NCBI RefSeq assembly: GCF_015831345.1
Contig: NZ_JADWYS010000001.1
Coordinates: forward strand, 1,808,118 to 1,872,117
DNA: 64,000 nt
Direction of reading: 5' to 3'
Source: Caenimonas aquaedulcis
GTDB taxonomy: Bacteria > Pseudomonadota > Gammaproteobacteria > Burkholderiales > Burkholderiaceae_C
Shown: in pieces, positions 41,084 to 45,062 of the stretch
How positions within the stretch are numbered: the stretch's first letter is position 1
How the letters are laid out: each line of letters begins with the position of its first letter
Position numbers and translations under genes: made by a program
Notes under the pieces: generated by a model
Databases searched by the model: none
What the model was told of the DNA's origin: nothing
The model's input: only the letters and a program-made list of their open reading frames with translations

Positions 41084-41818
41084 CTACAGCTGGAACTCCG
41101 CGATCAGCGGCAGGTGGTCGGACATGCGCCACCAGATGCGCCCGCGCGGGATGTGCACGCCCACGGGCTCGAGACCGCGCGAGTAGACGAAGTCGAGCTG
41201 CGTGAGCGGCAGGCGCGAGGGGAAGGTGAATTGCCGCTCCCCGACGAAATCCCGCAGGCCGAGCTTGTTCATCGCCGGGCGCAGCTTGCAGCCCCAGTCA
41301 TTGAGGTCGCCCGCGACCACCAGCGCTTCCTTCTTCGGGATCTCGCGCTCGATGTACTGGCCGAGCCGTTCGACCTGCCGCAGCCGGCTGCCCGCGATCA
41401 AGCCCAGGTGCATGACGATCACATGGATCGGCTTGCGGTCGACCTGCACGTGGACGTGCAACAGGCCGCGTTGCTCGAAGCGGTGGTCCGAGACGTCCTC
41501 ATGCGCATGCGACACGACCGGCCAGCGCGACAGCAGCGCATTGCCGTGCTCGCCGTGCGCCGTGGTGGCATTGGTGCGGTAGACCGACTCGTAGCCCTCG
41601 GGCGCGAGGAACTCGGCCTGCGGCAGTTCCGGCCAGCGCTTGAAGTATTTTTCTTCCTGGCGGTGGAGTTTGCGCACTTCCTGGAGGCAGACGACGTCGG
41701 CGTCGAGCTGCTCGACCGCGTGGCCGATGTTGTGGATCTCCAGCCGCCGGACCGGCCCCATGCCTTGCACCCCTTTGTGGATGTTGTAGGTGGCGATCCG
41801 GAACAGCGAGGAACTCAT
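41084..41818 (-). CDS. Endonuclease/exonuclease/phosphatase family protein (YbhP-like)
   Basis: 244 aa. EEP-fold motifs: ATYNIHKGVQG, VVCLQEVRKL, the GDLNDWG metal strand and the final SDHLPLIAEF. Family members cleave phosphodiester or phosphoester bonds. Located right before clsB, as E. coli ybhP is, so may process a phospholipid rather than DNA (inference). Start MSSSLFRIATYNIH at 41818, overlapping the nudB stop by 4 bp. Confidence 0.88.
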   Translation of the reverse strand: MSSSLFRIATYNIHKGVQGMGPVRRLEIHNIGHAVEQLDADVVCLQEVRKLHRQEEKYFKRWPELPQAEFLAPEGYESVYRTNATTAHGEHGNALLSRWPVVSHAHEDVSDHRFEQRGLLHVHVQVDRKPIHVIVMHLGLIAGSRLRQVERLGQYIEREIPKKEALVVAGDLNDWGCKLRPAMNKLGLRDFVGERQFTFPSRLPLTQLDFVYSRGLEPVGVHIPRGRIWWRMSDHLPLIAEFQL

Positions 41819-42264
41819 TGCGCAAATTGTGGCAGCAAGAGGATGGCCTCGGCGTTGGAAGGCGAGAAACAGGCATCCGCGGCCTCGCGCCAGGGCAGCC
41901 AGCGAAAGTCCGTGTGCTCCCGCGCATTCAGCGTCACGGCCGTGCCATCGGGCACGCACAGGCCGAAGACGTGCTCCGTGTTGCGCGTCACGCCGGGCGC
42001 GTAGCGGTGCAGCCAGCGGGGGTAGATGTCGTAGACATTCTCGATGCCCCAGTCGGTGAGGATGCCCTTGCGTGCGTCGATGCCGGTTTCTTCCCGCACT
42101 TCCCGCGTGGCGCAATCCTCGAAGGATTCGTCATCCCTGTCCTTGGCGCCCGTGACGGACTGCCAGTAGCCGGCGGCGTCGGCGCGATGGATGAGCAGGA
42201 CATCCCGCGCCGGGGTGTGGATCACCACCAGGACGGATTGGGGGATCTTGAAGGGGGGCGTCAC
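41815..42264 (-). CDS. nudB: Dihydroneopterin triphosphate diphosphatase (Nudix)
   Basis: 149 aa. Nudix box GAKDRDDESFEDCATREVREE through TGID is complete. NudB removes pyrophosphate from dihydroneopterin triphosphate, the FolE product, in folate synthesis; folE lies 5 kb away. GTG start at 42264 (VTPPFKIPQSVLVVIHT); a longer frame upstream has no family similarity. In Comamonadaceae nudB usually follows aspS directly; here a toxin-antitoxin module and debris interrupt the two. Confidence 0.9.
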   Translation of the reverse strand: MTPPFKIPQSVLVVIHTPARDVLLIHRADAAGYWQSVTGAKDRDDESFEDCATREVREETGIDARKGILTDWGIENVYDIYPRWLHRYAPGVTRNTEHVFGLCVPDGTAVTLNAREHTDFRWLPWREAADACFSPSNAEAILLLPQFAQ

Positions 42265-42290
42265 CCGCCTATTGTGACGAAGCTGCCCAT

Positions 42291-42395
42291 TTACCAGATC
42301 CGAAATTCCTCGCCGAAGACGCCGAACTGCTCCACGACGTCGTGGTGCATGTCGACCCATTCCTTGTAACGCGCGTAGAACTCATCTTCGCCACA
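42291..42395 (-). pseudogene. C-terminal remnant of an unidentified gene
   Basis: Minus-strand frame ending at TAA reads FYARYKEWVDMHHDVVEQF and then GVFGEEFRIW. Third codon positions are mostly G/C, as in real genes here, but upstream the frame loses coding character (Ser-rich, irregular) around 42395 and no start exists. I do not recognise the family. It lies directly beside nudB and next to AT-richer DNA, so looks like the stump of a gene cut by an insertion. Confidence 0.5.
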
Positions 42396-42601
42396 AAATC
42401 TGGGGCGATATATCGGACTGCTTGATTGCGCCGATTTCGGATCGCCTCTGCTGCACGACCCTCCTATCACTCTTAAACGGCTTTTTCAATGAAATAGAAA
42501 GCGTAGTAAACGCCCCAGAAATCCAAAAGAAAGTGAAAAAAGATAACTGCGTTTGCTGAGTTCGCGGGTCATGAGTCTTGTCGAGACATCTCGCCGACTA
42601 T
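42396..42601. other. AT-richer gap downstream of the toxin gene
   Basis: About 206 bp clearly lower in GC than the surroundings and without a credible gene. One minus-strand frame (stop at 42473-42475) reads the hydrophobic string VIFFHFLLDFWGVYYAFYFI, between two stops and without a start; another has a 28-codon ATG ORF starting MTRELSKRSY. Either may be debris. Together with the stump at 42291-42395 this marks a rearranged junction. Confidence 0.5.
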
Positions 42602-42919
42602 TCAGAAGCCGCTGAGGATGGCGTCCATCGCCGCAGCCACTTCGCCAGCGCGATGCGAGATCGAGGCCACGGGTTTCCTGAGCATTCGGGCAGGAAGAGG
42701 CGCCGCCTGATGGGCCAGCAGGATCAGGGTTTCACCATCCACCTGCACCACAGGGCACAGATTCTCGGGAAGTCTGGTCACATCGGCGCCGACCCTTGAC
42801 AGCGGCATGACCAGGCGCGTCGGCAAACGCTCGAGCAAACCGCTCTGTACGTCCGCGACGTACGGCACGGACTCGCGGGATGCCTGGATGGGATTGAGAT
42901 AAATATCGAACTGCGCCAT
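42602..42919 (-). CDS. ccdB: CcdB-family toxin
   Basis: 105 aa; MAQFDIYLNP then YVADVQSGLLERLPTRLVMPL, DVTRLPENLCPVVQVDGE, and ISHRAGEVAAAMDAILSGF all match CcdB, a gyrase-poisoning toxin. The conserved C-terminal hydrophobic end (ILSGF) is present. It begins one base after the antitoxin stop, so the two are coupled. Start at ATG 42919; the longer frame runs into the antitoxin gene. Placed as an insert between nudB and aspS. Intact by eye. Confidence 0.9.
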   Translation of the reverse strand: MAQFDIYLNPIQASRESVPYVADVQSGLLERLPTRLVMPLSRVGADVTRLPENLCPVVQVDGETLILLAHQAAPLPARMLRKPVASISHRAGEVAAAMDAILSGF

Positions 42920-42920
42920 C

Positions 42921-43199
42921 TCAGCCTTGCTGCCAGGCAACAGAGCCTTCGCACCACAGGCCATTCTTTTCGAATTCCCGGTTCTGCGCGTCGAGCCAAT
43001 CCCGGTAGGTCTCGTTGAATTCCTTCTTTCGCGCCGACAGGGACTTGCCACGGGCGGCCATCGTCAGCGCCTGGAACTCCTCGTAGCCCAACAACACCGT
43101 GTCTGGCCGGCCATCCTTTTCCACGATGACCGGCTCGCCCTTGGCCTGGCTGCAGAAATAGCCGAACCGGTTCTTGGCTTCAGTCGCGGTGATTTGCAT
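42921..43199 (-). CDS. Antitoxin with Phd/YefM-type N-terminus and CcdA-like C-terminus
   Basis: 92 aa. N-terminal ~50 residues (ITATEAKNRFGYFCSQAKGE, PVIVEKDGRPDTVLLGYEEF) look like the Phd/YefM DNA-binding fold, whereas CcdA normally has a ribbon-helix-helix. C-terminal part (KEFNETYRDWLDAQNREFEKNG) has the spacing of the CcdA toxin-binding tail that wraps CcdB. So this may be a hybrid antitoxin. AAGGAG precedes the ATG. A palindrome with a TAAAAT -10 lies upstream (43215-43231), consistent with autorepression. Domain calls are by pattern only. Confidence 0.8.
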   Translation of the reverse strand: MQITATEAKNRFGYFCSQAKGEPVIVEKDGRPDTVLLGYEEFQALTMAARGKSLSARKKEFNETYRDWLDAQNREFEKNGLWCEGSVAWQQG

Positions 43200-43214
43200 G
43201 GGCGTGTCTCCTTG

Positions 43215-43231
43215 TTGGCCATTTTAGCCAA
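43215..43231 (-). promoter_or_regulatory. Operator-like palindrome of the ccd module
   Basis: TTGGC ... GCCAA arms with a 7-nt spacer directly upstream of the antitoxin start. The spacer and left arm contain the -10 TAAAAT of the minus-strand promoter, so a bound antitoxin would block RNA polymerase. Confidence 0.5.
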
Positions 43232-43249
43232 ACAGTGGAGCACCCACAA
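43221..43249 (-). promoter_or_regulatory. Putative sigma-70 promoter of the antitoxin-toxin pair
   Basis: Minus strand: TTGTGG (-35, weak, 3 of 6) 17 bp upstream of TAAAAT (-10, 5 of 6). Good spacing and overlap with the operator support it. Confidence 0.5.
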
Positions 43250-43259
43250 GAAGCCTGTA

Positions 43260-45062
43260 TCACGCTGCCGCGGTATTCCTCAACCGGATATGCAGCTCGC
43301 GGAGCTGCTTCTCGTCCACCGGCCCCGGCGCCTGCGTGAGCAGGTCCTGCGCGCGCTGGGTCTTCGGGAAGGCGATCACGTCGCGCAGGCTTTCCGCGCC
43401 CGTCATCAGCATGACGAAGCGGTCCAGGCCGATCGCGATGCCGCCGTGCGGAGGCGCACCGTATTGCAGGGCGTCGAGCAGGAAGCCGAACTTCAGCTTC
43501 GCTTCTTCCGCGTCGATCTTGAGCGCGCGGAACACCTTGCTCTGCACGTCCTCGCGGTGGATACGCACCGACCCCCCGCCGAGTTCGATGCCGTTGAGCA
43601 CCGCGTCGTAGGCCTTGGCGACCGCCTTGCCCGGGTCGGTTTCGAGGAGGTCCTCATGGCCGTCCTTCGGCGAGGTGAACGGGTGGTGCACCGCGTTCCA
43701 GCGCTGGCCGTCGTCGTCGTATTCGAACATCGGGAAGTCGATGACCCACAGCGGCTTCCACTCGCCTTCGACCAGGCCGTTGGCCTTGCCGAATTCGCTG
43801 TGGCCGACCTTCACGCGCAGCGCGCCGATCGCGTCGTTCACCACCTTCGCCTTGTCCGCGCCGAAAAAGATGATGTCGCCGTCCTTGGCGCCCGAGCGTT
43901 TCAGGATCTCGGCGACGGCGGCGTCGTGGATGTTCTTCACGATCGGCGACTGCAGGCCCTCGCGTCCCTTCGCCACTTCGTTGACCTTGATCCACGCCAG
44001 GCCCTTGGCGCCGTAGATCTTCACGAATTCGCCGAACTGGTCGATGTCGCCGCGGCTCATGCCGGCGCCGCCGGGCACGCGCAGCGCCACCACGCGGCCG
44101 TCCTCGGCGTTGGCCGGGCCGGAGAACACCTTGAAGTCCACGTCCTTCATCACGTCGGTGAGTTCGGTGAATTCGAGCTTCACGCGCAGGTCCGGCTTGT
44201 CCGAGCCGTAGAGGCGCATCGCGTCCGCGTGCTTCATCACGGGGAAGGCGCCGATGTCGATGCCCTTCACGTTCTTGAAGGTGCTGCGGATCATGCCTTC
44301 GAACATCTCGCGGATTTCCTCTTCGGTGAGGAAGGAGGTTTCCACGTCGATCTGCGTGAATTCCGGCTGGCGGTCGGCGCGCAGGTCCTCGTCGCGGAAG
44401 CACTTGGTGATCTGGTAGTAGCGGTCGTAGCCGGCCACCATCAGCAGCTGCTTGAACAGCTGCGGCGACTGCGGCAGCGCGAAGAACATGCCGTCGTGCA
44501 CGCGGCTGGGCACGAGGTAGTCGCGCGCGCCCTCGGGCGTGCTCTTGGTGAGCATCGGCGTCTCGATGTCGATGAAGCCGTTGGCGTCGAGGAACTTGCG
44601 AACCTCCATCGTCACCTTGTAGCGCAGCATCAGGTTGTTCTGCATGTACGGGCGGCGCAGGTCCAGCACGCGGTGCATGAGGCGCGTGGTCTCCGACAGG
44701 TTCTCGTCGTCGAGCTGGAACGGCGGCGTCACCGAGGGGTTGAGGACCGTCAATTCCTGGCACAGCAGTTCGATCTTGCCGCTCTTGAGGTTGTCGTTGG
44801 TCGTGCCCTCGGGGCGCGCGCGCACGAGGCCCGTGACCTGCACGCAGAATTCGTTGCGCAGGCCCTCGGCCGTCTTGAACATCTCGGCGCGGTCCGGGTC
44901 GCAGACGACCTGGACATAGCCTTCACGGTCGCGCAGGTCCACGAAGATCACGCCGCCGTGGTCGCGCCTGCGGTTCACCCAGCCGCACAGGGTCACGGTC
45001 TGGCCCAGGAGGGCTTCGGTCACGAGACCGCAATAGGTCGTTCGCATTTTCTGTTGGGACAT
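43260..45062 (-). CDS. aspS: Aspartyl-tRNA synthetase
   Basis: 600 aa, bacterial-type class IIb enzyme. N-terminal OB anticodon domain ([26 protein letters not shown]), the long GAD insert, and class II motifs ([46 protein letters not shown]). Charges tRNA-Asp. Downstream order DUF502, FmdB is reversed along the same strand: those genes lie upstream of it. The start ATG at 45062 is preceded by the DUF502 gene 51 bp earlier. Confidence 0.97.

Follow-up and report, generated by a model that had tools for sequence, protein, structure and literature searches.

How does a CcdB toxin come to be served by an antitoxin that lacks the DNA-binding head of CcdA? This is the question raised by a small pair of genes in the window (by which we mean the whole 64,000-nucleotide stretch of Caenimonas aquaedulcis DNA analysed), and our answer, which we hold with considerable confidence, is that the pair is a chromosomal type II toxin–antitoxin operon with a two-part antitoxin, the parts of which belong to two exchange units, one made of the operator and the head and the other of the tail and ccdB. 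All the genes concerned lie on the minus strand. The antitoxin of 92 amino acids (42921..43199) comes first, with a Phd/YefM head at residues 1-48, a linker at 49-68 and a CcdA-like tail at 69-92; the toxin of 105 amino acids (42602..42919) starts 1 bp past the antitoxin stop, and the two are flanked by aspS upstream (43263..45062; NCBIfam PRK00476, 879 bits) and nudB downstream (41818..42264; NCBIfam PRK09438, 202 bits). The first-pass annotation had the order of the genes and the 1-bp gap right, and it was also right about the toxin, which has the CcdB fold and matches PF01845 at 94.6 bits against a cut-off of 28.6. With the antitoxin first, a short gap, and promoter-like and ribosome-binding sequences in front of the antitoxin, the layout is that of a type II operon. 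In mechanistic terms, we envisage that the Phd/YefM-type head would dimerise on TTGGCTAAAATGGCCAA over the -10 box, so repressing its own operon, while the CcdA-type tail would wrap and neutralise CcdB, keeping a presumably toxic protein from poisoning DNA gyrase; in evolution, the operator and head would move as one exchange unit and the tail and ccdB as the other.

The head is a member of the Phd/YefM family. Residues 2-62 match PhdYeFM_antitox (PF02604) at 35.2 bits (cut-off 29.8) and the antitoxin also matches TIGR01552 (phd_fam) at 26.4 bits (cut-off 20.8), whereas the ribbon-helix-helix N-terminal domain of CcdA (PF07362) was not found here, and it is because this domain is absent that the pair is not filed as CcdA. 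Both sets of heads that were compared with ribbon-helix-helix CcdA stay within their nulls (9/60 and 16/60), and the proposal that a Phd/YefM N-terminus stands in place of the ribbon-helix-helix is thus well founded. Relatives that share the head only had a PIN-like toxin as partner in all 12 of the 12 cases examined, the toxin being judged by eye. When the fold of a relative's antitoxin was compared with known structures, the 12 leading rows all came from toxin–antitoxin entries, though at low Z (<=4.5), seven of them titled Phd or YefM; a Foldseek search with the antitoxin alone gave no match at E <= 0.001.

The likeness of the tail to CcdA emerges at the level of the family, since the window antitoxin on its own gives no match to the CcdA profile PF07362, even at E 10. 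When residues 50-92 of 47 family rows were compared, profile against profile, with 30 ribbon-helix-helix CcdA proteins, the score was 33.9 (hhalign E 4.6e-7) against a maximum of 19.5 among 300 column-shuffled profiles, and a larger set of 76 antitoxins against 93 CcdA proteins scored 36.2, the null maximum over 60 shuffles being 16.6. The aligned region covers 21 columns, reaches the last column of CcdA and stops 3 residues short of the end of the antitoxin. Control tails from PIN-partnered Phd antitoxins scored 14.5 in one set (5 sequences; 4/60 shuffles reach it) and 11.1 in a second (4 sequences; 15/60 shuffles reach it), both within their nulls, and we conclude that, as a family, these C-terminal segments are homologues of the end of CcdA that binds CcdB, which bears out the CcdA-like tail originally proposed from the letters of one gene. 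One homologue among the 120 of 220 matches listed, P0114, is itself annotated with both PF07362 and PF02604. A sequence search of the PDB with one ribbon-helix-helix-headed and one Phd-headed antitoxin of a second group (described below) returned no CcdA chain.

Structure prediction was less generous. The 1-bp gap prevents the window pair from being read as one chain, and a relative with a gap of zero (L010), in which antitoxin, stop and toxin read through, was therefore folded instead with AlphaFold2, on 105 rows of which 23 were paired. In this fused model, which is one chain, linker-free, with a single copy of CcdB and hence a poor stand-in for a complex, the tail is not ordered on the toxin and is the least confident part, with a mean pLDDT of 54 over residues 81-90 and values under 50 at 88-93; the tail pLDDT was higher in the antitoxin alone than in the fused model (71, then 61).

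Upstream of the antitoxin, and on the same strand, lie a -35-like TTGTGG (43244..43249), so called for its resemblance to the consensus only, a -10-like TAAAAT (43221-43226) 17 bp from it, and an AAGGAG ribosome-binding site (43208..43213). The -10-like box sits within the putative operator TTGGCTAAAATGGCCAA (43215..43231), a motif widespread in the family: in its strict form, T[AG]GCTAAAAT[AG]GC[CT]A, it is present in 64 of the 77 distinct upstream regions of the window's family and missing from 13, and it occurs in none of 1540 mononucleotide shuffles and in none of the 121 ribbon-helix-helix-headed loci (93 distinct pairs). The motif accompanies GLWC, GVFG and GIPG tails alike, that is, it goes with the head, and it may serve in autoregulation, although the -10 box could account for part of its conservation. 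An upstream promoter and palindrome had been proposed; the promoter-like elements and a conserved motif are indeed there, but its two halves show no covariation (33 of 65 complementary), so that the palindromic nature of the operator is not proven.

How widespread is this arrangement? There are 220 antitoxin homologues at E <= 0.001, and 28 loci in contigs with informative titles come nearly all from genera of the Comamonadaceae or from Burkholderiales/Betaproteobacteria, with one from the Zoogloeaceae. Among 250 genomes from the host's family, 35 have a near full-length antitoxin (rows with E <= 3.7e-26), a count that includes some without an intact adjacent ccdB (G515, G421, G107); at one of the loci of this survey (L142, genome G366) no ccdB was detected. 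The antitoxin is also present in 26 of 100 genomes of a genus that we take to be Variovorax, three of its loci being identical to Variovorax loci, and in 7 of 60 genomes of the host's own genus, among whose members are one locus that equals that of Caenimonas sp. SL110 over the compared segments and antitoxins identical to proteins that bear the name Ramlibacter. A match to ccdB follows the antitoxin in 30 of the 30 relatives inspected, some of them broken, and in 15 of these 30 the pair lies after aspS and before nudB (L003 and L061 differ, with the order aspS-nudB-pair). The pair had been described as an insertion between nudB and aspS: the position is correct, but so many relatives share it that the arrangement must be regarded as old. 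Across the class, CcdB is found in 36 of 274 genomes, CcdA in 34 and both in 32, leaving four (G000, G107, G174, G209) with CcdB and no CcdA. Head typing covered a redundant set of 236 loci with a CcdB match and gave no head to six. A set of 73 CcdB loci sampled from the host's family consists of 62 ribbon-helix-helix-headed, 5 Phd-headed, 5 with an AbrB-looking head and 1 unassigned, figures that do not describe a random sample because most of the other CcdB places had been collected beforehand as members of the window's family.

The tail changes with the toxin. Over 76 distinct pairs, distances between tails correlate with distances between toxins at 0.73 and those between heads at 0.60, the partial correlations being 0.62 for the tail once the head is controlled for and 0.39 for the head once the tail is; over 50 clusters at 85% toxin identity the figures are 0.64 and 0.49, with partial values of 0.55 and 0.32, and not one of 1000 label permutations attained the partial value for the tail. 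A previous calculation with 46 pairs, drawn from 59 loci after 13 were dropped for broken, missing or edge-cut genes, an unresolved ccdB start or identical pairs, gave 0.79 for tail and 0.71 for head (partial 0.63 and 0.46). In addition, among the 50 strongest pairs of columns between the two proteins, 28 fall in the 21 columns of the tail, 14 in the 48 of the head and 8 in the 20 of the linker (89 in total). None of these tests removes the effect of common descent more than in part.

It is in close relatives that the seam becomes visible. In genus g370, at the same aspS-nudB site, two loci (L101 and L145) have a GLWC-type tail and a third (L103) a GVFG-type; between L101 and L103 there is near-identity from the operator as far as codon ~73, after which the tail and ccdB differ and nudB is once more similar, and the comparison of L145 with L103 gives 235/252 identical bases, then 225/348 across tail and ccdB, then 421/453 beyond ccdB. 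The Variovorax loci L150 and L020 behave in the same way, with 250/273 identical bases from -33 to codon 80, 217/329 over the tail and ccdB and 419/458 beyond; their antitoxins share 75 of the first 79 residues and then read GLWCEGMVAWQDAP against GVFGESFRPW, while the toxins agree at 44 of 103 residues, so that the determinants of specificity are expected in the final 10-14 residues of the antitoxin and the two alleles become natural test pairs. In both mosaics the sequence just upstream of the operator, towards aspS, has diverged as well over ~60 bp. The break positions were chosen by eye ahead of the Fisher tests, and the p-values (1e-14 to 4e-24) are accordingly descriptive only. Two genera show the same pattern, and recombination is probably the simplest reading of how these mosaics arose. 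Side by side with them we note that L101 carries a 176 bp MITE-like insert between antitoxin and ccdB, with 11-bp inverted ends AGAGGCTGAGA...TCTCAGCCTCT recognised by eye.

The window itself retains an odd piece between ccdB and nudB: a second antitoxin tail of the GVFG subtype, FYARYKEWVDMHHDVVEQFGVFGEEFRIW followed by a stop (~42294..42383, minus strand), with no toxin of its own. It was detected by a whole-genome profile search (positions 60-89 of the A1 profile, E 4.6e-5) and by tblastn with the antitoxin of L009 (E 9e-9, in a small set), and it is closest to the tails of L110, L126 and L127 and, within the same genus, to those of L063/L181. GC content is ~0.48-0.58 over the stretch around it (42200-42599) as against 0.64-0.67 in nudB. 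Most likely it is what is left of a previous occupant of the locus. Fragments also occur elsewhere in the same genus, where L182 and L183 have a piece of the head directly before nudB (with no aspS within the stretch examined) and L184 has a tail and the end of a ccdB between aspS and nudB. Separately, L196 and L197 contain small ORFs in which an unrelated N-terminus precedes a GLWC/GIWC-type tail, with no ccdB match in the examined stretch, and these are either orphan antitoxins or remnants.

A second, independent hybrid family (L137 and L173-L176) combines a different Phd/YefM head with a tail ending in GSFADEHSTL and a CcdB. The three heads scanned match PF02604 at 44-59 bits, and two of the three tails scanned match CcdA below the cut-off (16.2 and 14.2 bits against 22.4). 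The heads are 62-79% identical to PIN-partnered Phd heads, the tails 54-69% identical to two ribbon-helix-helix-headed CcdA tails, and the toxins 63-73% identical to the toxins of those same two loci and 23-30% to the window's. In a tree of 176 distinct toxins of 95-125 amino acids, which rests on few columns (105) and includes long branches (L059, L124 and others), the second family forms a single clade (99/87), nested within a 100/100 clade otherwise made up of ribbon-helix-helix-headed loci. Upstream sites, read by eye, divide in the same manner: four PIN-Phd loci with the second family's class of head (L185, L190, L191, L066) have CTGTACA...TAGCTA or a near variant, the five second-family loci have TGTACA at the same place in three cases and with one change in two, and four ribbon-helix-helix-headed relatives have ATGCGCATAATATGCGCAT in three cases and a variant in the nearest, L186. 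On these similarities, operator and head look like one type of module and tail and toxin like another. The swapping of DNA-binding and toxin-binding modules, suggested at first from a single locus, thus finds its counterpart both in the mosaic genes of close relatives and in a second family of mixed module types. L191 is also worth recording in its own right, as it lies in the window's genome (contig 1, ~2025574): a second antitoxin of the Phd/YefM kind is encoded there, paired with a toxin that by eye is PIN-like, and the site upstream is of the TGTACA type. So too is L186, from the window's genus, where the ccdB of a ribbon-helix-helix-headed pair is immediately followed by a separate Phd-like antitoxin gene, an arrangement that is a possible setting for head exchange.

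Could an ordinary Phd/YefM antitoxin have evolved a CcdB-binding tail independently, its likeness to CcdA being convergence on the groove of CcdB? Both tails presumably contact the same surface of the toxin, and the window-type tail is only 14-19% identical to CcdA at the profile level, but the two tails run out together in the alignment (within 3 residues), whose score greatly exceeds those of both shuffles and Phd control tails, and we consider such convergence improbable. For the second family it fails as an explanation, since GSFADEHSTL is identical in Phd-headed and in many ribbon-helix-helix-headed antitoxins and the toxins fall in one supported clade, an argument that applies to that family and not to the window's own subfamily.

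Nor do we favour the idea that the differences in tail and toxin within a genus are due to fast divergence in place, under selection and without any exchange of cassettes, which strikes us as very improbable indeed. Toxins of these systems may evolve quickly, and tail and toxin would be expected to diverge together; the change is nevertheless abrupt, with 24-30 identical bases per 30-base window in the head, 8-23 in the tail and ccdB and 23-30 beyond (leaving aside the windows at the alignment ends), and the exchanged toxins of the mosaics sit in different supported clades, beside toxins of other genomes. The fragments in L182, L183 and L184 and the orphan tail kept in the window might be taken to mean that the pair is a decaying chromosomal relic, no longer functional in this genome, yet both window genes are intact, a promoter and an operator-like site are present, and dN/dS against L002 is 0.06-0.15, albeit with dS near saturation (0.74-2.6), all of which leaves decay with a small share of our belief; against L003, dN/dS for the second half of the antitoxin is 0.41. 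The reading that we prefer is therefore still that of a two-part antitoxin in a presumably working operon. From here one can go further and suppose that cassettes (operator with head, tail with toxin) and not genes are what evolve as units, and that at the aspS-nudB site of the Comamonadaceae tail and toxin have repeatedly been replaced by recombination within the antitoxin gene, with the regulatory half kept and, at times, a displaced tail left behind, such as the GVFG orphan of the window. We give this broader proposal about an even chance. If it is true, aspS-nudB is a polymorphic site at which toxins diversify, and the orphan tail may be likened to the displaced C-termini that CdiA/Rhs loci retain.

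How does the pair compare with what is already known? With CcdA-CcdB of the F plasmid and of chromosomal ccd loci it shares the CcdB family (PF01845), the antitoxin-toxin order and a tail that aligns with the C-terminus of CcdA, and it departs from them in its Phd/YefM head, which replaces the ribbon-helix-helix of CcdA, and in an upstream motif foreign to the ribbon-helix-helix-headed loci. A reference cited by PMC3920263 states in its title that the 41 C-terminal residues of CcdA are enough to counter CcdB. With the Phd/YefM antitoxins of Doc, YoeB/RelE or PIN toxins it shares the family of the head, whose cut-offs it passes, whereas its tail and its toxin are of the CcdA/CcdB type. Another parallel is the adjacent pair of PHD and SMa0917 (MazF/CcdB superfamily) in Alphaproteobacteria (Makarova 2009, PMC2701414), in which, too, a PHD antitoxin stands beside a toxin of that superfamily; SMa0917 differs in being placed with PemK/MazF, and the passages of that paper on the pair mention neither a CcdA-type tail nor breaks within the antitoxin gene. 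HicB antitoxins bear helix-turn-helix, ribbon-helix-helix or Phd/YefM DNA-binding domains according to the sections of PMC10865869 that describe them, and are alike in that one class of toxin has antitoxins with various DNA-binding domains, Phd/YefM included; there, however, the toxin is another one, and those sections compare classes and do not show recent mosaic genes at a single locus. Mix-and-match pairing of toxin and antitoxin families is established and, in the relevant part of PMC3920263, is explained by in situ displacement. Our search of the mainly open-access literature turned up neither a description of a Phd head joined to a CcdA tail nor one of mosaics whose break lies within an antitoxin gene. 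A break inside the antitoxin gene, visible in close relatives, would be a finer mechanism than pairing by family, in that the new toxin would bring the matching antidote tail with it and leave the old switch in place, and exchange of tail and toxin together would account for the replacement of a toxin with protection maintained throughout.

The two families do not exhaust the heads found before CcdB. Six loci (L129 and L270-L274) have a third, AbrB-looking by eye, in antitoxins that start LKEVG(A/T)SGQISLGKK(Y/F)AGQLF, and we think that this is a class worth naming. In those scanned, Pfam detected no head domain and NCBIfam gave nothing meaningful; two of the three match the C-terminal half of CcdA only, below the cut-off (20.9 and 16.4 bits against 22.4; E 4.7e-4 and 0.012), and the antitoxin of L129 gave no match to CcdA. 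As a set of 6 sequences they score 46.3 against CcdA, with 1 of 60 shuffles higher at 131.7, possibly a gap artefact. The toxin tree joins L129 to L124 (98/83), a Phd-headed locus on a long branch, and placing the five labels on the tree needs 8 changes where the minimum is 4. Finally, DUF6959 (PF22281) is weakly matched by CcdB, namely by the window toxin and the toxin of L129 (E 0.004 and 0.04, below the cut-off), and to judge from these matches it is possibly a distant relative of CcdB.
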